DNA of 64,000 nucleotides, taken from NCBI RefSeq assembly GCF_017305435.1, contig NZ_JAFKIP010000004.1, positions 124,001-188,000 of the forward strand, in the 5' to 3' direction. This document shows positions 1 to 9,553 of this stretch, one piece after another (positions within the stretch are counted from its first letter, which is position 1; each line of letters starts with the position of its first letter). Both the position numbers and the translations under genes were made by a program. This stretch comes from Microbacterium sp. (GTDB lineage: Bacteria > Actinomycetota > Actinomycetes > Actinomycetales > Microbacteriaceae). The notes beneath the pieces were generated by a model, which searched no databases, had not been told where the DNA came from, and saw only the letters and a program-made list of their open reading frames with translations.

Positions 1-141
1 CTTCGTGATACTCAGTCTCGCGAGGCGCCAGTCGTCCCGGCGTTGGTCCGGCGCATGCGCCCCGTGGGACTGTGTTGTCCACACTAGACTCTCCGGTGCT
101 GTGACGCCGATCGGCGTTGCGGGGAAATCGGAGGACTCGTC

Positions 142-1092
142 GTGCTCAACGTCGGCATCGATATCGGCGGAACGAAGATCGCGGGCGGTGTCGTCGCGGA
201 AGACGGACGCATCATCGAACGCGCCCGCGTCGTGACGCCGACGGACACCGCCGACCTCGCGCAGGCCGTCGCGGACATGGTCGAGGACCTGGCATCCCGT
301 CACGACGTGCACAGCGTCGGCGTCGCCGCCGCGGGATACATCGACCGCACGCGCTCGATCATGATGCACGCCCCCAACATCGACTGGCAGAACGTGCCGC
401 TGCGCGCCCAGTTCGAGGAGCGCATCGGGCGGCCCGTGACGCTCGAGAACGACGCCAACGCGGCGGGCTGGGGCGAGTTCCGCTTCGGTGCCGGGCGCGG
501 CACGTCCGACATGGTGATGGTGACGCTCGGCACGGGTGTCGGCGGCGCCGTCATCACCGACGGGACGCTCGTGATCGGCGCGAACGGCAGCGCGGCCGAG
601 CTCGGCCACATCCGATTCGTCCGCGGCGGGCGCCCGTGCGGCTGCGGGCAGAACGGATGCCTCGAGCAGTATGCGTCCGGCAGGGCGCTGCAGCGCGAAC
701 TCGCCGACATCGCCGACGCCGGAGGGATCGGCGACCGGCTCGCCGCGCACCGCGGCGCCGATGGCCTCGTGCACGGCCCGCAGCTCGCTCTGCTGCTGAG
801 CGAGGGTGACGAGGGCGCGCTCGAGGCTGTGCGCCGTGTCGCGACGGCGCTCGGGGAGGCGTGCGGCGGGTTCCAGGCGGTCCTCGATCCCGAGTTGTTC
901 GTGATCGGCGGTGGAGTGGCCGACCTCGGCGAGGTGTTGCTCGAGCCCACCCGCGTCGCGTACGAGTCCGCCCTCCCTGGGTTCGGTGACCACCCGACGG
1001 CGCGATTCGTCATCGCGACTCTCGGCAACGACGCGGGGCTCGTGGGCGTCGCCGACCTGGCGGGACTGCGCTCGGGCGTCCGGGCCGAGTGA
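142..1092 (+). CDS. ROK-family sugar kinase (probable glucokinase)
   Basis: Probable cytoplasmic ATP-dependent sugar kinase, most likely phosphorylating glucose at the entry to glycolysis. The 316-residue protein opens with the phosphate-binding motif DIGGTK (residues 7-12). It has the ENDAN segment with the likely catalytic Asp104, and the ROK zinc signature from His156 through Cys166, Cys168 and Cys173 (CGCGQNGCLEQYASG), which marks the ROK family. The GTG start follows a GGAGGA ribosome binding site at 130-135. A TAGACT -10-like box at 85-90 would give a leader of about 50 nt. The acyltransferase gene follows 10 nt later, so the two are probably co-transcribed. Family assignment is firm; sugar specificity is inferred. 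Bases 1-84 contain no gene I can support. Confidence 0.9.
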   Translation: MLNVGIDIGGTKIAGGVVAEDGRIIERARVVTPTDTADLAQAVADMVEDLASRHDVHSVGVAAAGYIDRTRSIMMHAPNIDWQNVPLRAQFEERIGRPVTLENDANAAGWGEFRFGAGRGTSDMVMVTLGTGVGGAVITDGTLVIGANGSAAELGHIRFVRGGRPCGCGQNGCLEQYASGRALQRELADIADAGGIGDRLAAHRGADGLVHGPQLALLLSEGDEGALEAVRRVATALGEACGGFQAVLDPELFVIGGGVADLGEVLLEPTRVAYESALPGFGDHPTARFVIATLGNDAGLVGVADLAGLRSGVRAE

Positions 1093-1102
1093 GGAAACCG
1101 CG

Positions 1103-1813
1103 ATGTTCTACTGGTTCATGAAGTACATCGTGATCGGACCGATCGTCAAGGCGATCTTCCGGCCGTGGATCGTGGGCCGCACCCACGTCCCGGCGAACGG
1201 CGCGGCGATCCTCGCATCGAACCACCTCTCGGTGAGCGACTCGATCTTCCTGCCGCTCATGATCGACCGGCCGATGAGCTTCCTGGCCAAGAGCGACTAC
1301 TTCACGGGCAAGGGCATCAAAGGCTGGGCGACCCGCGTGTTCATGAAGGCGACCGGGCAGATCCCGATCGATCGCACGGGCGGCAAGGCCTCGGAGGACT
1401 CGCTCAACACGGGTCTGCAGGTGCTGGGGCGCGGCGATCTCCTCGGCATCTATCCGGAGGGCACGCGCAGCCCCGACGGCAAGCTCTATCGCGGCCGGAC
1501 GGGGCTGGCCCGCATGGCACTCGAAGCGCGCGTCCCCGTCGTCCCCGTCGTCATGGTCGACACGGGCGAGATCATGCCGATCGGTCGTTCGATCCCGCGG
1601 ATCGGTCGCGTCGGCATGGTGATCGGTGAACCGCTCGACTTCTCCCGCTTCCACGGCATGGAGTCCGACCGGTACGTCCTGCGATCGGTGACCGACGAGA
1701 TCATGGTCGCTCTGCAGCGTCTCGGTGAGCAGGAGTACGACGACGTGTACGCGTCGACCGTGAAGGACCGGGCGAACGCTCCGGCCGTGGGCTCGTCGCC
1801 CGCCGCCGGATGA
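1103..1813 (+). CDS. plsC: 1-acyl-sn-glycerol-3-phosphate acyltransferase
   Basis: PlsC-family acyltransferase (236 residues) that should transfer an acyl group to lysophosphatidic acid, giving phosphatidic acid for membrane phospholipids. The catalytic NHxxxxD motif is NHLSVSD at residues 40-46, and the second conserved block EGTRS is at 119-123. A hydrophobic N-terminus (MFYWFMKYIVIGPIVKAIF) should hold it at the membrane. The ATG at 1103 follows GAGGAAA by 5-6 nt and lies 10 nt after the ROK kinase, so an operon is likely. The frame is open further upstream into the kinase gene, but that extension has no family similarity and was rejected. The last ~20 residues are low-complexity Ala/Ser/Pro. 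Confidence 0.9.
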   Translation: MFYWFMKYIVIGPIVKAIFRPWIVGRTHVPANGAAILASNHLSVSDSIFLPLMIDRPMSFLAKSDYFTGKGIKGWATRVFMKATGQIPIDRTGGKASEDSLNTGLQVLGRGDLLGIYPEGTRSPDGKLYRGRTGLARMALEARVPVVPVVMVDTGEIMPIGRSIPRIGRVGMVIGEPLDFSRFHGMESDRYVLRSVTDEIMVALQRLGEQEYDDVYASTVKDRANAPAVGSSPAAG

Positions 1814-1863
1814 CGCGCACTTCCGACCCCGTCACGCGAGCATCCGCCGCTGCGCCACGCCAC

Positions 1864-1869
1864 TAGACT
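1864..1869 (+). promoter_or_regulatory. TAGACT -10 box, leaderless promoter of aroG
   Basis: TAGACT ends 6 nt before the aroG ATG and no Shine-Dalgarno sequence lies between them. Transcription is predicted to begin at or next to the start codon. No clear -35 is visible. Confidence 0.5.
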
Positions 1870-1875
1870 GGCCGG

Positions 1876-3213
1876 ATGCCCACTCCGCACGCCGACCTGG
1901 ATCACTGGCGCACGCTTCCCATCAAGCAGCAGCCGCTCTGGCCCGACGCCGACGCCGTCGCCGCCGTGTCGACCGAGATCGCGAGCCTTCCGCCCCTCGT
2001 CTTCGCGGGCGAGGTCGACAACCTGCGCGACCGCCTCGCGAAGGCCGCCGCGGGCCAGGCCTTCCTGCTCCAGGGCGGCGACTGCGCGGAGACCTTCGCC
2101 GGCGCCACCGCTGAGCAGATCCGCAACCGCATCAAGACCGTGCTGCAGATGGCCGTCGTGCTGACCTACGGGGCATCCATGCCCGTCGTCAAGATGGGGC
2201 GTATGGCCGGGCAGTTCGCGAAGCCCCGGTCGAGCGACACGGAGACGCGTGGCGACGTGACCCTTCCCGCCTACCGCGGCGACATCGTCAACGGCTTCGA
2301 CTTCACCGAGGGGTCGCGCACGGCCGACCCGCAGCGGTTGCTGAAGGGCTACCACACGGCGGCATCCACCATCAACCTCATCCGTGCGTTCACGCAGGGC
2401 GGCTTCGCGGACCTGCGCGAGGTGCACTCGTGGAACAAGGGCTTCGCGCAGAACCCGGCGAACCAGCAGTACGAGCGGCTCGCGACCGATATCGATCGCG
2501 CGATCAAGTTCATGGAGGCCGCCGGCGCCGACTTCGACGAGCTCAAGCGCGTCGAGTTCTACACGGGCCACGAGGGCCTGCTGATGGACTACGAGCGGCC
2601 GATGACCCGCATCGATTCGCGCACGCACACTCCGTACAACACGGCCGCGCACTTCCTGTGGATCGGTGAGCGCACGCGCGAGCTCGACGGCGCGCACGTC
2701 GACTACTTCTCGAAGATCCGTAACCCCATCGGGGTGAAGCTCGGCCCGTCGACCGACCCGTCGGTGGCGCTCGCGCTCATCGACAAGCTCGACCCCGAGC
2801 GCGAGCCCGGCCGTCTCACGTTCATCACGCGGATGGGTGCGGGCAAGATCCGCGACGCGCTGCCGCCGCTGCTGGAGGCCGTGAAGGATGCCGGGGCGGC
2901 CCCGCTCTGGGTCACCGACCCCATGCACGGCAACGGCATCACGACGCCCACGGGATACAAGACACGCCGTTTCGACGACGTCGTCGACGAGGTGCGCGGG
3001 TTCTTCGAGGCGCATCGCGCCGTGGGAACCCACCCCGGCGGCATCCACGTCGAGCTCACGGGAGACGACGTCACGGAGTGCCTGGGCGGCTCGGAGCAGA
3101 TCGACGAGGCGACCCTCGCGACCCGCTACGAGAGCCTGTGCGACCCGCGCCTGAACCACATGCAGTCGCTCGAGCTCGCCTTCCTCGTGGCCGAGGAGCT
3201 CGAGAAGCGCTGA
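1876..3213 (+). CDS. aroG: Class II 3-deoxy-7-phosphoheptulonate (DAHP) synthase
   Basis: First enzyme of the shikimate pathway: joins phosphoenolpyruvate and erythrose 4-phosphate into DAHP for aromatic amino acids. At 445 residues it has normal length for the plant/actinobacterial class II family. Visible family blocks are LQGGDCAETF (residues 65-74, with metal-ligand Cys70), HSWNKGF, the phosphate-binding ITRMGAGKIRD, WVTDPMHGNG and GGIHVELTGDDVTECLGG. It has its own leaderless-type promoter (TAGACT at 1864). In Mycobacterium the orthologue lies in the same neighbourhood as pknL, Rv2175c and a polyprenyl synthetase, which matches the genes downstream here. In mycobacteria the enzyme also activates chorismate mutase; that cannot be judged from this window. 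Confidence 0.96.
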   Translation: MPTPHADLDHWRTLPIKQQPLWPDADAVAAVSTEIASLPPLVFAGEVDNLRDRLAKAAAGQAFLLQGGDCAETFAGATAEQIRNRIKTVLQMAVVLTYGASMPVVKMGRMAGQFAKPRSSDTETRGDVTLPAYRGDIVNGFDFTEGSRTADPQRLLKGYHTAASTINLIRAFTQGGFADLREVHSWNKGFAQNPANQQYERLATDIDRAIKFMEAAGADFDELKRVEFYTGHEGLLMDYERPMTRIDSRTHTPYNTAAHFLWIGERTRELDGAHVDYFSKIRNPIGVKLGPSTDPSVALALIDKLDPEREPGRLTFITRMGAGKIRDALPPLLEAVKDAGAAPLWVTDPMHGNGITTPTGYKTRRFDDVVDEVRGFFEAHRAVGTHPGGIHVELTGDDVTECLGGSEQIDEATLATRYESLCDPRLNHMQSLELAFLVAEELEKR

Positions 3214-3246
3214 CGCGGGCGCCGCGCGCACCCCTGCCCGCGATCA

Positions 3247-3303
3247 CGAGAACGCACGACAGCACCTCTCCCGAACTCTGAAAGGTGCTGTCGTGCGTTC
3301 TCG
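3247..3303. repeat. Long perfect hairpin spanning the start of the DUF559-like gene
   Basis: Two arms of 21 nt (3247-3267 and 3283-3303; core GAGAACGCACGACAGCACCT) are exact reverse complements separated by a 15-nt loop. The right arm carries the AAAGG ribosome binding site and the GTG start (3293) of the following gene. A close copy of the same element lies at 4196-4250, at that gene's end. It could also end aroG transcription, but it has no T-tract. Confidence 0.9.
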
Positions 3304-4210
3304 CGCGCCGCGCTGTGGAGAGTTCGCCCGCGCGGCGGGCGTCGGACGGGGGCGGCTTCGCGGGCGTGACCTCGGCCACCCGCATCACGGCGTCTATGTC
3401 GCCGCGGCATTCGATGACCTGGTCGATCGCTGCGCGGCGCTGAGCGTCGCGCTCGGTCCGCAGCACTGGTTCAGTCACCTCACGTCCGCCCGGCTGTGGG
3501 GCATTCCGCTTCCACGCCGGCACGCACCGATCGAGCCGTTGCACGTCCTCACGGTCGGAGGGCGGGTGCCGGTGCGTCATCACCACGTCGTCGGGCGCGT
3601 GACCTCGGACGACCCCGAGCGCGGCATGCACGCCGGGCTCCGGATGATCGGCCCGGTCGTGACGTGGTGTCATCTCGCGACGCGGGGAGCCGTCACCGCC
3701 GGGAGTCTTCTCGACCGTGATGCCCTCGTGATCGCGGCCGACGTCCTCACGACGAAGCGGCGCCTCGCGACGGGGCGAACGCTCCCGCCGCTCGCTGCGG
3801 CGGCAGACCTCGTCCACGCCGTCGAGGCGCACACCGGCCGCGGCACGCGTCTGCTGCGCGAGGCGCTCGCGCTCGTGCGGCCCGGAGCGGAGTCGCCTCG
3901 GGAGACCCTGCTGCGGCTCCGCATCGTCGAGGCGGGGCTTCCCGAACCAACGGTGCAGCTTCCTGTGGCGACGACTGCCGGCATCCTGTACGGCGACCTC
4001 GGATATGAGCGGCAGCGCATCGTGCTCGAGTATCAGGGCGACGAGCACCGCACCTCGCGGTGGCGATGGCTCAGCGATCTGACGCGTGTCCAGCTGCTTC
4101 AGGATGCCGGGTACGACGTCATCCTCGTCGGTGCGGACGATCTCGTGCCCGACCCGATCGCGCTCCTCGCGCGTATCGGCCGCGCGCTCGCGCGCGAGAA
4201 CGCGCGATAG
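3293..4210 (+). CDS. DUF559/Vsr-like protein with AbiEi-like N-terminus
   Basis: Function unknown. The 305-residue protein resembles a family common in Actinobacteria, often annotated as a DUF559 or endonuclease-domain protein. The N-terminal ~75 residues look like the AbiEi-type antitoxin winged-helix region (RDLGHPHHGVYV, SAR LWG). The C-terminal ~105 residues look like a Vsr/PD-(D/E)XK fold: Glu204 in SPRETLLR, Asp235 in YGDLGYE, then Glu246-x-Gln248 in LEYQGDEHR, and a helix ending VQLLQDAGYDVILVGADDL. The usual lysine is replaced by Gln, as in some members. No toxin partner is adjacent. The start codon and ribosome binding site lie inside one hairpin, and the TAG stop lies inside a second copy of it. 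Mobility or self-regulation through these repeats is inference. Confidence 0.82.
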   Translation: MRSRAPRCGEFARAAGVGRGRLRGRDLGHPHHGVYVAAAFDDLVDRCAALSVALGPQHWFSHLTSARLWGIPLPRRHAPIEPLHVLTVGGRVPVRHHHVVGRVTSDDPERGMHAGLRMIGPVVTWCHLATRGAVTAGSLLDRDALVIAADVLTTKRRLATGRTLPPLAAAADLVHAVEAHTGRGTRLLREALALVRPGAESPRETLLRLRIVEAGLPEPTVQLPVATTAGILYGDLGYERQRIVLEYQGDEHRTSRWRWLSDLTRVQLLQDAGYDVILVGADDLVPDPIALLARIGRALARENAR

Positions 4211-4250
4211 CACCGTTCGGGCGGTTCCGCGGGTGCTGTCGTGCGTTCTC
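4196..4250. repeat. Second copy of the long hairpin, spanning the stop codon
   Basis: The left arm (4196-4214) and right arm (4232-4250, GGTGCTGTCGTGCGTTCTC) pair over 19 nt with two G-U-compatible mismatches. The right arm is identical to the right arm of the 3247 element. The left arm contains the TAG stop (4208-4210) of the DUF559-like gene. The element sits between convergent genes and could act as a bidirectional terminator. Confidence 0.88.
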
Positions 4251-4276
4251 GGCGCGGGCCGGGGGCGCCGCGCGGG

Positions 4277-6223
4277 TCAGCCCGTGACGGTGAGCTGCAG
4301 CGTGACCGCGGTGCCCTTCTCGCGTTCGGAGTTCGCCTTCGGGTCCTGCGCGGAGACCTTCGTGAGCGCGTCCGGCCAGGCATCCCACAGAAGCGAGTAG
4401 CTCGCCTCGAAACCGGCGTCCTCGAGGGTCTCCTTCGCCTGGTCGCGGGTCATGCCGACGACGTTCGGCACGGGGAAGAGCTCGGGCCCCTTCGACACGA
4501 CGAGCGTCACGGTGTCGCCGGGCCGGAAGTGCCCGCCGCCTTCGCGGTCGGCGATGCGGATGACATCGCCCTTGTCGACCTCCGAGCTGAACTCCTCGGT
4601 CGTGACGGCGGACAGGTCGACGGCGCGCAGCTTCGATGTCGCGGCATCCACCGTCGCCCCGGAGACGTCGGGTACGGGACCGATCGATACGTCGAACGCG
4701 ACCGTCGATCCTTCGAGGGCGGTGCAGCCGTTCGTGCAGTCGATCGCGTCTCCGCCGCCGGGGGGCGTGATCCAGACGCCGATGACGGCGTCCGGGGCGG
4801 CGTCGGTGAAGTACCGCGAGGGGTCTCCGGATGCCGTGATGTACAGGGACTCGAGGCTCTGCCGCGCGCCATCCACGTTCTGCCCCGCGAGGGCGCCGAT
4901 CTCGTGCGACGCCGGGCCGAGCGAGATGATCACCGTGACCTGCGCATCCTTCTCGACGCGGGTTCCGCTCGCGGGGTCGGTGCCGATCGCCTGCCCGGCG
5001 GGGATCTCGCGACTGAAGTCCTGTCCGGGGACGGCGACAAGTCCGAACCCCGAGAGGGTGGCCGAGGCGTCCTCGATGCTCTGCCCCGTCACGTCGGGCA
5101 CCGCGATGAGCGATCCCGGGCCCGATCCGAACCACCAGCCCGCCCCGCCCGCGAGGGCCGTGAGAAGCAGGACGAGAGCGAGGAGCCAGCCGCCCTTGGT
5201 CGCGTTCCGGCGCGCGCGGCGCCGGAGCCTCGTCGCGTTGTCGGTGTCGTCGGTCACGGTCGGGGCGGTGAAGCTGCCCGGAAGCACCTTCGTCACCTCG
5301 CCCGAGTCGATGCCGTCATCGATCACGGCGACGCGCGTCGCGGCCGCGGCGTGCGCGCGCACGACGTGCGGGAAGACGCCGAGCTCCTTCTCGATCTCGC
5401 GCAGCCGGTCGAGCATCACGCGCGCGTCCGTCGGGCGCTCGTCGGGCTGGCGCTCTGTCGCCCAGAGCACGAGCTCATCGAGCTGCTCGGGGATGCCGGG
5501 GTTCTTGGCGCTCGGCCGCGGCACCGAATCGGTGGCGTGCTGGTAGGCGATCTGCATGGGCTGCTCGCCCTTGTACGGCTGCTCTCCGACGAGCATCTCG
5601 TAGAGCATGATGCCGAGCGCGTAGATGTCGCTGCGGGCATCGGCGGTGCCACGCGTCACCAGCTCGGGCGCGAGGTACGCGATCGTGCCGAGCAGCATCT
5701 GCCCGGTCGCCGTGTTGGCGCTCGTCGCGCGCGCCAGACCGAAGTCGCCGATCTTGATCCGGCCGTCCTCGGCGAGCAGCACGTTCTCGGGCTTCACGTC
5801 ACGGTGGACGATCCCGGCGCGGTGCGCCGCGGCGAGGCCCGACAGCACGGCATCCATGATCGTGATCGTCTGCGGGATCGACAGGCGCCGCTGCTCGCGC
5901 AGGAGGTCGCGCAGCGTGATGCCGGGCAGGTACTCCATGACGAGATACGCCATCTCGCCGTCCTGCCCCTGATCGAAGACGTTGACGACGTGCGGGTCGG
6001 CGAGTCGGGCGGCGGCCCGCGCCTCCTGGATGAACCGGCCCTGGAAGACCTGATCGTCGGAGAGGTGCCCGTGCATGACCTTCAGCGCGACCCGGCGCTC
6101 GAGGCGCAGATCGGTCGCGACGTACACCGTGGCCATCCCGCCGCGGGCGATGCGAGCGCGTACGCGGTACCGACCGTCGACCAGACGGCCGATCAGCGGG
6201 TCGGTCTGCTGGCTCGTGCTCAC
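4277..6223 (-). CDS. pknL: PASTA-domain Ser/Thr protein kinase (PknL-type)
   Basis: Membrane-spanning eukaryotic-type kinase, likely sensing peptidoglycan fragments or lipid II outside and phosphorylating division or regulatory proteins inside. Of its 648 residues, the kinase domain covers about 15-275: glycine loop ARGGMATVYVA, Lys48, HRDVKPEN with catalytic Asp142, DFG at 160-162 and APE at 185-187. A juxtamembrane linker follows, then one membrane helix (about 345-366) and four extracellular PASTA-like repeats (about 374-436, 440-514, 517-579, 584-646). The second repeat is divergent and carries Cys496 and Cys500. The GTG start is 6 nt after TAGAAT (6235-6230), so it is probably leaderless. 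The Rv2175c-like gene and aroG nearby support orthology with PknL. Confidence 0.93.
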   Translation of the reverse strand: MSTSQQTDPLIGRLVDGRYRVRARIARGGMATVYVATDLRLERRVALKVMHGHLSDDQVFQGRFIQEARAAARLADPHVVNVFDQGQDGEMAYLVMEYLPGITLRDLLREQRRLSIPQTITIMDAVLSGLAAAHRAGIVHRDVKPENVLLAEDGRIKIGDFGLARATSANTATGQMLLGTIAYLAPELVTRGTADARSDIYALGIMLYEMLVGEQPYKGEQPMQIAYQHATDSVPRPSAKNPGIPEQLDELVLWATERQPDERPTDARVMLDRLREIEKELGVFPHVVRAHAAAATRVAVIDDGIDSGEVTKVLPGSFTAPTVTDDTDNATRLRRRARRNATKGGWLLALVLLLTALAGGAGWWFGSGPGSLIAVPDVTGQSIEDASATLSGFGLVAVPGQDFSREIPAGQAIGTDPASGTRVEKDAQVTVIISLGPASHEIGALAGQNVDGARQSLESLYITASGDPSRYFTDAAPDAVIGVWITPPGGGDAIDCTNGCTALEGSTVAFDVSIGPVPDVSGATVDAATSKLRAVDLSAVTTEEFSSEVDKGDVIRIADREGGGHFRPGDTVTLVVSKGPELFPVPNVVGMTRDQAKETLEDAGFEASYSLLWDAWPDALTKVSAQDPKANSEREKGTAVTLQLTVTG

Positions 6224-6314
6224 CCTGCGATTCTAGGGAGCGGATGCTGAAAGCCCGGGGAGCGGCTCACCCCGGAGGAGGCTCCGGACCCGTCGCCGCG
6301 CGACTCAGATCGAC

Positions 6315-7337
6315 TCACCCCAGGGCCGCGAGCCATGCATAGGCCTGCTGCTCCCACGCCGCGTAGCGGTCGGGATGGGCTGAGACCTGCACCGCCTGCG
6401 CGGCATCGGCATACGGCAGCGATTCCCACCCCGGGACGTCGAGCAGGCCGCGCGTCGCGTCGCCGCCGGGGTCATCCGGTCCGCCGTAGAACGCCGCGGC
6501 CGCGCGCGCCGGATCGAGGATCTCGTCCGACGTGCCCCATCCCGTACTGGGGCGCTGCTGGAACAGGCCCAGCGAATCGCGATCGCCCCAATCGAGGTTG
6601 CGGATCCAGGATTCGACCATGGCCGTTCCGAGCGCGATCGCGATGCCGCGATCCGGCACGCCGCGCTCCCTCCCGACCCGGATGATGATGCGCGCGTTCG
6701 CGATCTGATCGTCGTCGAGCCCGGCGACGGATGGCGCGTCCGCCGCAGGCACGGACGCGGTCGCCGGTGCGGACGCCGGTGCGGGCGATTCGGCCGGTCC
6801 GGGCAGGGCGAGGCTCTGGCCGGGGTAGATGATGGCGCCCGGCGGAAGCGCATTGGCCGCGAGCAGCGCATCGAGTGAGACCCCGGCGTCCGCCGCGATC
6901 GCCCAGAGCGTGTCGCCGGCGACGACGACGCGGGATGCCGCGGCCGCGGGCGTGTCCGTCGCGGCGGGCGCCGAGGCGTCGGCGGCCGGGCCTACGGTCG
7001 CCGCGGCGCCGGACAGTGTCAGCTCGTCGCCGGGGTGGATGATGCTCGACCAGTCGAGGCCGTTCCGCGCGAGGACGTCGCCGGTCGCCAGTTCGAACCG
7101 CTCCGCGATGCCGCTCACGGTGTCGCCGGCGACGACGACGTAGGTGTCCGGCGCGGCGAGGGCCGCGCGGAGGAACGCGTGGGGCGGGGGAGTGACGGCA
7201 CGGAGCAACACGGGGGCGGCATCGGCGCGCGCCCCGGCGGTCGGCGCGGGTGCGCCCGAGAGCGCGAGAGACACCGATCCGAGCACGGCGGTCGTGGCGG
7301 TGAGCGCCGACGGGGTCGGCAGGAGCAGTGATCGCAA
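6315..7337 (-). CDS. Secreted LysM protein with lysozyme/transglycosylase-like C-terminus
   Basis: Exported peptidoglycan-binding and probably peptidoglycan-cleaving protein of 340 residues. After a signal-like hydrophobic stretch (about 1-40) come two LysM repeats (about 65-108 and 136-178, both with AGDT and HPG/YPG motifs). An Ala/Pro-rich linker and a C-terminal domain from about 205 follow, containing GTAMVESWIRN and SLGLFQQRPSTGWG; Glu242 is the candidate catalytic acid. I chose the TTG at 7337 because GGGGGAAG lies just upstream; an in-frame GTG at 7373 adds 12 residues but lacks a ribosome binding site. The gene is divergent from the Rv2175c-like gene, with a repeat-rich gap between them. 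Its position beside the PASTA kinase suggests a shared role in cell-wall remodelling. Confidence 0.85.
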   Translation of the reverse strand: MRSLLLPTPSALTATTAVLGSVSLALSGAPAPTAGARADAAPVLLRAVTPPPHAFLRAALAAPDTYVVVAGDTVSGIAERFELATGDVLARNGLDWSSIIHPGDELTLSGAAATVGPAADASAPAATDTPAAAASRVVVAGDTLWAIAADAGVSLDALLAANALPPGAIIYPGQSLALPGPAESPAPASAPATASVPAADAPSVAGLDDDQIANARIIIRVGRERGVPDRGIAIALGTAMVESWIRNLDWGDRDSLGLFQQRPSTGWGTSDEILDPARAAAAFYGGPDDPGGDATRGLLDVPGWESLPYADAAQAVQVSAHPDRYAAWEQQAYAWLAALG

Positions 7338-7377
7338 GAACTTCCCCCTTCTTCGACCCGGCCACCGTGACACGGAT

Positions 7378-7418
7378 GTGTACGGGTGTCAATGAGTGTG
7401 ATCAGTGTGGTCTGTGTG
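7378..7418. promoter_or_regulatory. Phased GTGT direct repeats between divergent genes
   Basis: GTGTG words start at 7396, 7405 and 7414, exactly 9 nt apart, and a GTGTA word at 7378 is in the same 9-nt phase (18 nt before 7396). A further GTGTC at 7386 is one base out of phase. A TTGACA on the minus strand (7392-7387) lies inside the array. This looks like an operator for the LysM gene or for both divergent genes; the binding protein is unknown. Confidence 0.4.
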
Positions 7419-7506
7419 GCAGATGAGATCCGGATGCTCCATCGCGATGCGATTCTGCGGTGCACGCTCGCCCCTGAGGGCGCCGACGACCTGCGATAGT
7501 GAGAGG

Positions 7507-7857
7507 GTGACCGATGCCGTATCCCCCTCCGTCTCCACCGACTGGCTGACCATGCCCGACCTCGTCGAGGTGCTGGGTGTGCCGCTCGGACGGGTCCGTC
7601 GGCTGATCGACGACCGCGCCCTCGTCGGGAGCAAGCGAACGGGCGTTTTCGCCGTCCCCGCGCTCTTCGTCGTCGACGGAGCGCCGCTGTCGTCCCTGCG
7701 GGGCACGGTGATCGTGCTGCAGGATGCCGGCTTCAGCGACGACGAGCTCATCGACTGGCTGCTCAGCGAGGAGGAGTCCATCGGGCTCGCACCGATCGAG
7801 GCCCTCCGCCGCGGGCGCAAGAGCGAAGTGCGCCGCGTCGCGCAGACGCTCGCCTGA
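7507..7857 (+). CDS. Rv2175c-like DNA-binding protein
   Basis: Small cytoplasmic protein (116 residues) resembling the Rv2175c family, whose mycobacterial member binds DNA and is a substrate of the kinase PknL. The N-terminal half looks like a winged helix-turn-helix (DWLTMPDLVEVLGVPLGRV followed by RRLIDDRALVGSKRTG). The C-terminal half is a compact helical region (SSLRGTVIVLQDAGFSDDELIDWLL). The GTG at 7507 is chosen because it gives the family's usual length; GATAGT (7496-7501) just upstream suggests a leaderless start. The PASTA kinase lies two genes away on the other strand, consistent with a kinase-substrate pair. DNA target and phosphorylation are not visible in the sequence. Confidence 0.85.
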   Translation: MTDAVSPSVSTDWLTMPDLVEVLGVPLGRVRRLIDDRALVGSKRTGVFAVPALFVVDGAPLSSLRGTVIVLQDAGFSDDELIDWLLSEEESIGLAPIEALRRGRKSEVRRVAQTLA

Positions 7858-7892
7858 GCGTCGCGACGTCGGGCGTTCGGCGCGAGGACGTC

Positions 7893-8981
7893 TCAGGACG
7901 CGCGCGCCGTCGCGTCGCGCGCCAGCGCGCGCAGCGCCTCGACGGGGCCTGCCGCCAGGGGAGTATCGCGCAGCGCGCGGTCGGCCTCGTCCGCGTAGGC
8001 GTCGATCAGGCCTTCCACGCGTGTGAGCGCGCCGGAGGCGGCGATCGTCTCCTGCGCGGCGGCGACCTGCGCGGCATCCAGTGTCGGATCGCCGATGAGC
8101 GCGTCGAACGTGCGCCGCTCCGCTGGGCCCAGCGCTTCGCGCGTGTACGCCACGAGCACCGTCCGCTTGCCCTCGCGCAGATCGTCGCCGGAGGGCTTTC
8201 CCGTGACGGCGCTGTCGCCGAAGACGCCGAGCACGTCGTCGCGCAGCTGGAACGCGAGTCCGAGCGGATGCCCGAACGCCGACAGGGCCGCCGACTGCGC
8301 GGCATCCGCGCCGGCGAGCGCACCGCCCAGGAGCAGCGGGTGCTGGATCGAGTACCGCGCAGACTTGAGGGATGCCACGCGCAGCGCGCGCTCGGCGTGC
8401 TCCGCGTCGGGAGCGGTGACGAAGGCCGCCTCCTCCGCGATGTCGAGGAACTGCCCGACCGTCACCTCCCTGCGCATGAGACCGTAGACATCCCGCGCGC
8501 CCGCGGCGTGCGGGGCGTCGCGGAGGCCGTCCTCGAGGAGGTCGTCGCTCCACGCGACGAGCAGGTCGCCGAGGAGGATCGCGGCGGACCGGCCGAACGC
8601 CTCGGCCGATCCGGCCCACCCGGAGGCGGTGTGCTCCGCCTCGAGCGCGCGATGCGCGGCGGGACGTCCGCGACGGGTGTCGGAGTTGTCGATGATGTCG
8701 TCGTGCACGAGCGCGGCGGCGTGGAAGATCTCGAGCGCCGCGGCCGCCGCCAGGACATCGCCGGAGGGTGTCTTCGGAGCGTCGCCGTGGTCGGCGACTG
8801 CCTGCCAGCCGGTGACGCAGAAGCGGGCGCGCAGCCGCTTTCCCCCCGACAGCGTCGATGCGGCGTTCTCGACGAACACCGTCGCCTCGGGGCCGAATCC
8901 GCTCCATTCGCGGGCCCGGGTGTCGAGGAAGCTTGCCAGTCGCTGGGAAACTGCCTCGATCGGCGCCGGGGAGGGGATCAC
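7893..8981 (-). CDS. Polyprenyl (geranylgeranyl/farnesyl-type) diphosphate synthase
   Basis: Trans-prenyltransferase of 362 residues that condenses isopentenyl diphosphate with allylic diphosphates, supplying precursors for quinones, carotenoids or the lipid carrier pathway. Visible motifs are GGKRLRARF (46-54), the first Asp-rich motif DDIID (94-98) followed by DTRRGRP, and the second Asp-rich motif in FQLRDDVLGVFGD (245-256). Residues just before the first motif are small (FHAAALVH), which tends to permit longer products, but chain length cannot be settled by eye. The GTG start is 6 nt after TAGGCT (8993-8988), so it is probably leaderless. Its 3' end lies 35 nt from the Rv2175c-like gene, tail to tail. 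A homologue (idsA2) sits in the matching mycobacterial block. Confidence 0.92.
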   Translation of the reverse strand: MIPSPAPIEAVSQRLASFLDTRAREWSGFGPEATVFVENAASTLSGGKRLRARFCVTGWQAVADHGDAPKTPSGDVLAAAAALEIFHAAALVHDDIIDNSDTRRGRPAAHRALEAEHTASGWAGSAEAFGRSAAILLGDLLVAWSDDLLEDGLRDAPHAAGARDVYGLMRREVTVGQFLDIAEEAAFVTAPDAEHAERALRVASLKSARYSIQHPLLLGGALAGADAAQSAALSAFGHPLGLAFQLRDDVLGVFGDSAVTGKPSGDDLREGKRTVLVAYTREALGPAERRTFDALIGDPTLDAAQVAAAQETIAASGALTRVEGLIDAYADEADRALRDTPLAAGPVEALRALARDATARAS

Positions 8982-9449: not shown

Positions 9450-9485
9450 CGCGTATGTGACCGGGCTCGTCCCGGCACGACAGAG

Positions 9486-9514
9486 AGCACCGACCTCCGG
9501 GTCGGTGCTTTTTT
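9486..9514 (+). terminator. Intrinsic terminator after the DUF3040 gene
   Basis: A perfect 10-bp stem (AGCACCGACC / GGTCGGTGCT) with a TCCG loop is followed by six T residues, the classic rho-independent form. It insulates the dcw cluster. Confidence 0.93.
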
Positions 9515-9553
9515 GCGTTCGGGGGAGGGAAACCGCGTCCGAACCATAGTGAA

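Follow-up and report, generated by a model that had tools for sequence, protein, structure and literature searches.

The 64,000-nucleotide stretch of Microbacterium sp. DNA analyzed here, called the window below, carries a nuclease gene set between two copies of one long palindrome, in the interval between two genes that we take from their sequences to be aroG and pknB. Both palindromes overlap the ends of the gene (3293-4210) and have arms of about 20 bp, with the GTG start of the open reading frame inside the right arm of the first and the TAG stop inside the left arm of the second. A preliminary description of this DNA had placed the gene edges in this way and had correctly given the first palindrome as a perfect inverted repeat of a 20-mer. 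The second, which it put at 4196-4250 with two changes, in fact spans 4195-4251 and is 3 letters off the 20-mer in its left arm and 1 off in its right. The 20-mer is found 4 times in the window when up to 3 mismatches are allowed, and none of 100 shuffles contains it at all. Folded as RNA, the 2 stems are far more stable than shuffles (z = -10.0 and -6.5). Palindromes of the form CGAG...CTCG occur in the 64 kb only as the 2 that flank the nuclease gene; a weak match to the palindrome model at 9472-9523 (18.7 bits, E = 0.008) is probably chance.

Matched palindromes around homologous nuclease genes

Bracketing was scored as the best match between any upstream hairpin and any downstream hairpin of a gene, with a threshold of >20, and the counts depend on our custom hairpin finder and its cut-offs. 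By this measure 38 of 51 homologues in the genus are bracketed, versus 4 of 577 random intervals. The set of 51 consists of 28 of 30 loci, 19 of 20 lower-scoring loci (hand-picked from the profile match list, a few rows being skipped) and 4 paralogues from the window genome; it excludes L111, L123 and L149, which are at contig ends, and L030-L032, which are partial matches in the window's own genome. When pairs are swapped between genes, 94 of 2550 score >20, and most of the 60 such pairs listed are close orthologues. Among 117 other predicted genes used as controls 2 passed, and since both are by position homologues of the nuclease gene, the count for other genes becomes 0 of 115. Outside the genus, 18 of 29 loci are bracketed, the 29 spanning 22 genera and the 18 spanning 17. 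An extra set of 10 genomes was searched with a 31-row profile, 9 of them having window-type palindromes without a strong homologue, the tenth being G193; there, 10 of the 18 homologue matches examined (from a total of 30) also score >20. What the preliminary description treated as a single-gene palindrome unit is thus really bracketed, but the pattern is far wider than one gene.

In matched genes other than that of the window, the gap between the end of the 5' palindrome and the homology match is 41 to 259 nt, and the 3' palindrome begins no more than 50 nt from the match end in 24 of the 38 matched genes. Counted by form alone, a CGAG...CTCG palindrome lies within 330 nt of an end in 44 of 80 homologues, and at both ends in 22, compared with 6 such palindromes in 125 kb of more distant flanks.

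The exact fit at the 5' end belongs to the window copy. The distance from palindrome to ATG is 55 nt in Microbacterium lacticum, and the first long coding stretch that the two genes share lies 131 nt from the palindrome in M. lacticum versus 26 nt in the window. Hence, some 105 nt are missing at the 5' end of the window gene, which is without the usual start, and the start codon inside the 5' palindrome results from a local deletion, so that the overlap previously described is a local matter on that side. A direct alignment of the two sequences puts the gap elsewhere, and the ends of the deletion of about 105 nt are imprecise. The window copy of the gene may be decaying. At the other end, the stop codon within the 3' palindrome is common to the window, M. 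lacticum, G265, G129, G222 and G160.

An exact scan for the hairpin pattern, over one genome per species in 84,980 species and possibly leaving out the window's own genome, had as its sole match M. lacticum DSM 20427, where aroG, palindrome, orthologue, palindrome and pknB follow one another in the same place as in the window. The single match suggested a rare element, an idea that was dropped when a covariance model of the palindrome picked up matches in 95 of the 366 genomes of the genus (with up to 15 candidates per genome scored). With a profile of three orthologues, 114 of 361 genomes of the genus match at E = 1e-40. Among 30 loci examined, aroG lies beside the nuclease gene in 26 and pknB in 27, with neither at L128 and L129, and orthologues with the same neighbors carry such repeats in M. 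lacticum and elsewhere. At the G265 locus there are a terminator-like hairpin, 2 palindromes, the gene, and 4 palindromes in tandem repeats of 138 to 139 bp, the palindrome arm being CGAGACCGCACGATAGCACC.

Empty sites, which the preliminary description had raised, do exist. In a sample of 30 genomes absent from the match list of the three-orthologue profile, aroG was obtained in 29, with a gap to pknB of 18 to 134 nt in 22, a larger one in 6, and pknB not found in 1. In G338 the gap is 121 nt and includes a G288/G276-type solo palindrome; at this locus G101 carries a worn palindrome, G156 a solo hairpin of another type, and G252 a palindrome plus a shortened remnant of the nuclease gene. These sites fit either gain or loss of the unit, in an undecided direction. 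The idea of a currently mobile element is not supported, the gene being at one conserved place and no target-site duplication being definable; a recent mobile unit unique to the window gene was likewise rejected, as the same place is occupied in M. lacticum and others. As a separate observation, the 299-nt aroG-pknB gap at L178 (G147) has strong hairpins within GC-rich tandem repeats of roughly 100 nt, at the place where other genomes have the nuclease gene or nothing.

Private palindromes, scattered copies and fixed geometry

When the palindromes of the 5 genes in the window genome, namely the window gene and its 4 paralogues, are compared with each other, the scores are 7 to 13, at the level of chance, whereas the score between the window and M. 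lacticum palindromes is 38. Palindrome sequence goes with the gene and not with the genome. Over 22 genes, protein identity correlates with palindrome similarity (Spearman 0.464), and 0 of 2000 permutations are as high. At L026, one of the window-genome paralogues, the bracket score is marginal, at 21.

Further palindrome copies lie elsewhere in the genome for each of the 4 window-genome genes searched, the 5 less L026. The window family numbers at least 8 copies, 2 flanking the gene and 6 elsewhere, which bears out the suggestion that other copies of the 20-mer exist. Three of the paralogues have about 12, 9 and 3 copies away from the gene (one query), several matches of the second family being short and weak. 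Thirty genomes were scanned for another arm, GAGACTTCACGAATGTC, allowing up to 2 mismatches and counting pairs 38 bp apart. That family flanks the gene in 6 of these genomes, and pairs are present in 5 of them (G048, G046, G150, G171 and G122) but not in G233; the remaining 24 genomes have no pair and show nothing beyond isolated, unpaired matches. G048 has just a single pair apart from those at the gene.

By a custom base-composition rule, used in place of annotation to predict genes both for copy positions and for the control genes above, 26 of 32 copies in G171, G122, G046 and G048 have the 3' end of a predicted gene no farther than 120 nt away, and 2 are inside a predicted gene. Comparing 13 loci from G122, G046 and G048 with the retrieved G171 loci, only 2, representing one site, align beyond the palindrome. 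That scattered site is common to G171, G122 and G048, and the other alignments between these genomes barely exceed the palindrome. A scattered site in three species (L285, L296 and L302) has the same flanking DNA at 74 to 78 percent identity, an old insertion to which a date could be put. Clusters are seen as well: L083 (G265, contig C12) has at 2789-3731 five palindromes spaced at 205 to 242 bp, the stretches between them also sharing sequence, resembling a bacterial interspersed mosaic element (BIME)-like cluster, and L085 (G324, contig C136) has at 2676-3282 four palindromes 182 to 184 bp apart in tandem repeats with a different arm, CGAAACCGCTCAAGCGCACCG. Window-type palindromes at L095 (G156, 3199-3255) and L097 (G359, 2995-3051) have several matches per genome and match no flank of the homologues examined there, being either orphan families or ones whose partner is too distant to be recognized.

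The geometry is fixed within families. Each of the 21 copies examined in G171 measures 57 nt and each of the 13 copies of the L027 family 58 nt, the arms of both being nearly invariant except for two or three mid-arm positions, while the loops vary. A symmetric CGAG...CTCG form is found in at least one palindrome of 37 among 56 matched genes and in both palindromes of 22, and the outer length is 56, 57 or 58 in 58 of 59 CGAG...CTCG palindromes. In the three aligned families, to which the search was confined, the ends are symmetric CGAG/CTCG with no one-sided unpaired GTAG head. Arm mismatches in three families are G-T in 8, 10 and 7 cases and A-C in 9, 7 and 5. Because G-T is not favored over A-C, selection seems to act on each half-site of the duplex rather than on an RNA hairpin. 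RNA structure as the selected feature was rejected on this point together with two others, namely that an Rfam scan of window 1-8000 had three weak matches, all below the gathering score, and that covariation in the first palindrome family is little above shuffles.

The encoded protein has an AbiEi-like region fused to a nuclease domain of the Vsr / I-Bth0305I type. Structure comparison finds its best matches among Vsr-type nucleases, with the nuclease domain closest to the homing endonuclease I-Bth0305I. Residues E204, D235, E246 and H252 are invariant in an alignment of 31 rows, and their M. lacticum equivalents E217, D248, E259 and H265 are invariant in 46 rows. The window protein is below the Pfam curated cut-offs for DUF559 (14.4 versus 38.2 bits) and MTES_1575 (13.5 versus 20.6 bits), and an NCBIfam search with it had no match. 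At E = 0.01, 12 of 31 homologues match DUF559 and 10 of 31 match MTES_1575. The preliminary description was right that this is not a Y1 transposase: a search for Y1_Tnp (PF01797) at E = 0.001 was negative in all 30 genomes, while 5 of 14 controls were positive.

Table 1. Coordinates in the window of the palindromes, the nuclease gene and its neighbors
Feature	Position	Strand	Remarks
Upstream palindrome	3247..3303	.	57 nt, 20-bp arms, CGAG...CTCG ends
Downstream palindrome	4195..4251	.	57 nt; left arm contains the last codons and TAG stop of the nuclease gene
AbiEi-like / Vsr-type (DUF559-related) nuclease gene	3293..4210	+	5' end shortened relative to M. lacticum
Stretch from E204 codon to H252 codon	3902..4048	+	contains invariant E204, D235, E246, H252 (window protein numbering)
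aroG (DAHP synthase), presumed	1876..3213	+	upstream neighbor, conserved flank
pknB (PASTA-type Ser/Thr kinase), presumed	4277..6223	-	downstream convergent neighbor, conserved flank

A proposed pairing of protein and site, and the alternatives

Our preferred explanation, to which we give somewhat better than even chances, is that the protein encoded between the two palindromes takes them as its site in duplex DNA, in a system like that of the repetitive extragenic palindromes (REPs) in which a nuclease replaces the Y1 transposase. The gene product would be a sequence-specific DNA-binding nuclease with a winged-helix AbiEi-like region followed by a Vsr/EDxHD-type domain, and two protomers would read the palindrome as duplex DNA, in the form of inverted half-sites at fixed spacing. 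Judging from sequence comparison, recognition of its own palindrome by the predicted nuclease is well supported and quite likely, because proteins related to AbiEi attach to inverted repeats that precede the genes encoding them, according to PMC7319586. Physical binding upstream of the gene would probably let it repress itself, as AbiEi does. The observed co-divergence of protein and palindrome and the private palindromes of the paralogues are part of this reading, as is the REP-like scatter of each kind of palindrome outside genes. The likeliest source of the copies would be the nuclease, nicking or cutting at a cognate palindrome that is then copied during repair, by analogy with the REP-associated tyrosine transposases (RAYTs), which are thought to disperse REPs. 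We infer this spread, and would put its chances somewhat under even.

Some observations do not fit the pairing of protein and site. Bracketing is missed in 13 of 51 genes in the genus and 11 of 29 in other genera. In the extra set, no flank reached 20 against the scattered copies tested (1 to 2 per genome), and orphan palindromes exist there.

One alternative is that the palindromes are only operators of an AbiEi-like autorepressor, with the nuclease devoted to phage defense or some other task, the scattered copies regulatory or decoys, and nothing moving. AbiEi and Rv2827c do autoregulate through inverted repeats (PMC7319586), the 5' palindrome does lie upstream of the match at the distances given above, and arms are conserved where loops are not, as in binding sites. 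Against regulation alone stand the second palindrome, so often close to the 3' end of the match, the scattered copies placed mainly after genes, the tandem arrays of up to 5 palindromes, and the comparison in which all but one site failed to align with a G171 locus beyond the palindrome. We consider it unlikely but a serious rival. Far less probable is that these are ordinary bidirectional transcription terminators, repeated and flanking the gene by chance. They are strong hairpins, mostly just 3' of stop codons and some between convergent genes, but in the one palindrome family inspected 0 of 42 flanks have a T tract (at least 5 T in 8 nt), on which count ordinary terminators were rejected. 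Several genomes have a separate terminator-like hairpin between aroG and the palindrome, terminators require no gene-specific match at both ends such as the control genes lack, and G-T pairs are not preferred over A-C.

We also considered a homing-type selfish gene, whose nuclease would cut solo palindromes so that repair inserts palindrome, gene and palindrome, with recombination between palindromes leaving a solo one. In its favor are the nuclease domain, closest to that of the homing endonuclease I-Bth0305I, the clean empty sites, the solo palindrome at the same locus in G338, and the gene remnant adjoining a palindrome in G252. However, the palindromes are complete on both sides of the gene, so that, if they are the recognition site, the gene gives that site no protection; scattered solo sites stay unoccupied alongside the gene; and the locus is conserved across the genus. 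Homing is rated as very improbable.

Taken furthest, the pairing of nuclease and palindrome could represent a second, independent kind of REP, made up of AbiEi-Vsr nucleases that each recognize and propagate a private, mostly CGAG-ended palindrome, with several pairs per genome across Microbacteriaceae. That broad proposal we hold as possible, its chances falling a little short of even.

Comparison with known systems

REP-like palindromes are widespread. Outside the RAYT group some families have been described for which no enzyme is known, for example the CGTC repeats (PMC3733652). If the pairing holds, a large and poorly understood nuclease-like gene family would gain a substrate, and the palindrome-protein pairs, which differ in sequence under a common geometry, would amount to a natural table of codes for DNA recognition. 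Among the matches listed from the open-access literature, subscription journals lying outside it, no title or abstract opening reports palindrome-bracketed AbiEi-Vsr nucleases.

AbiEi and Rv2827c autoregulate via inverted repeats upstream of their own genes; that of Rv2827c has two 23-bp repeats 13 bp apart, making 59 bp against 57 bp here, and the AbiEi spacer is 3 bp (all from PMC7319586). The DNA-binding region is probably related, and the inverted-repeat site upstream of the gene is alike. Unlike in AbiE, there is an attached nuclease domain, and sites are also found 3' of the gene and scattered. No AbiEii toxin gene lies beside the nuclease gene, whose neighbors are aroG (26 of 30 loci) and pknB (27 of 30), so this is not an AbiE toxin-antitoxin pair, and that candidate was rejected. 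The C-terminal domain shares its fold with the EDxHD homing endonuclease I-Bth0305I and with Vsr, but here the gene is free-standing at a fixed chromosomal place and does not interrupt its presumed site; with palindromes complete on both sides it does not resemble a homing gene of the classical kind. The CGTC-tagged REPs are likewise palindromic extragenic repeats to which no Y1 enzyme is assigned, according to PMC3733652, and differ in tag, length and hosts, with a candidate dedicated enzyme visible in the present case.

The anatomy closely resembles that of RAYT-REP. As set out in PMC2817692, RAYT genes are always flanked by two REPs, often directly after the stop codon, and coevolve with them. 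Shared with that system are the gene between two palindromes, scattered extragenic copies, clusters, several gene-palindrome pairs per genome, co-divergence, and a conserved tetranucleotide at the palindrome end. Different are the enzyme, a Vsr-type nuclease with an AbiEi-like region and not a Y1 transposase, the palindromes, around 57 nt long and in most cases symmetric, with CGAG on each side where the RAYT type has a one-sided GTAG, and the fewer copies. Since the anatomy is close and Y1_Tnp was found in none of the 30 genomes, the system is RAYT-REP-like in outline and not a member. On the failed tests for RAYT, for AbiE and at the Pfam cut-offs, it could be a separate kind from the known systems; on a stricter view, it is a variant of the REP-like ones.
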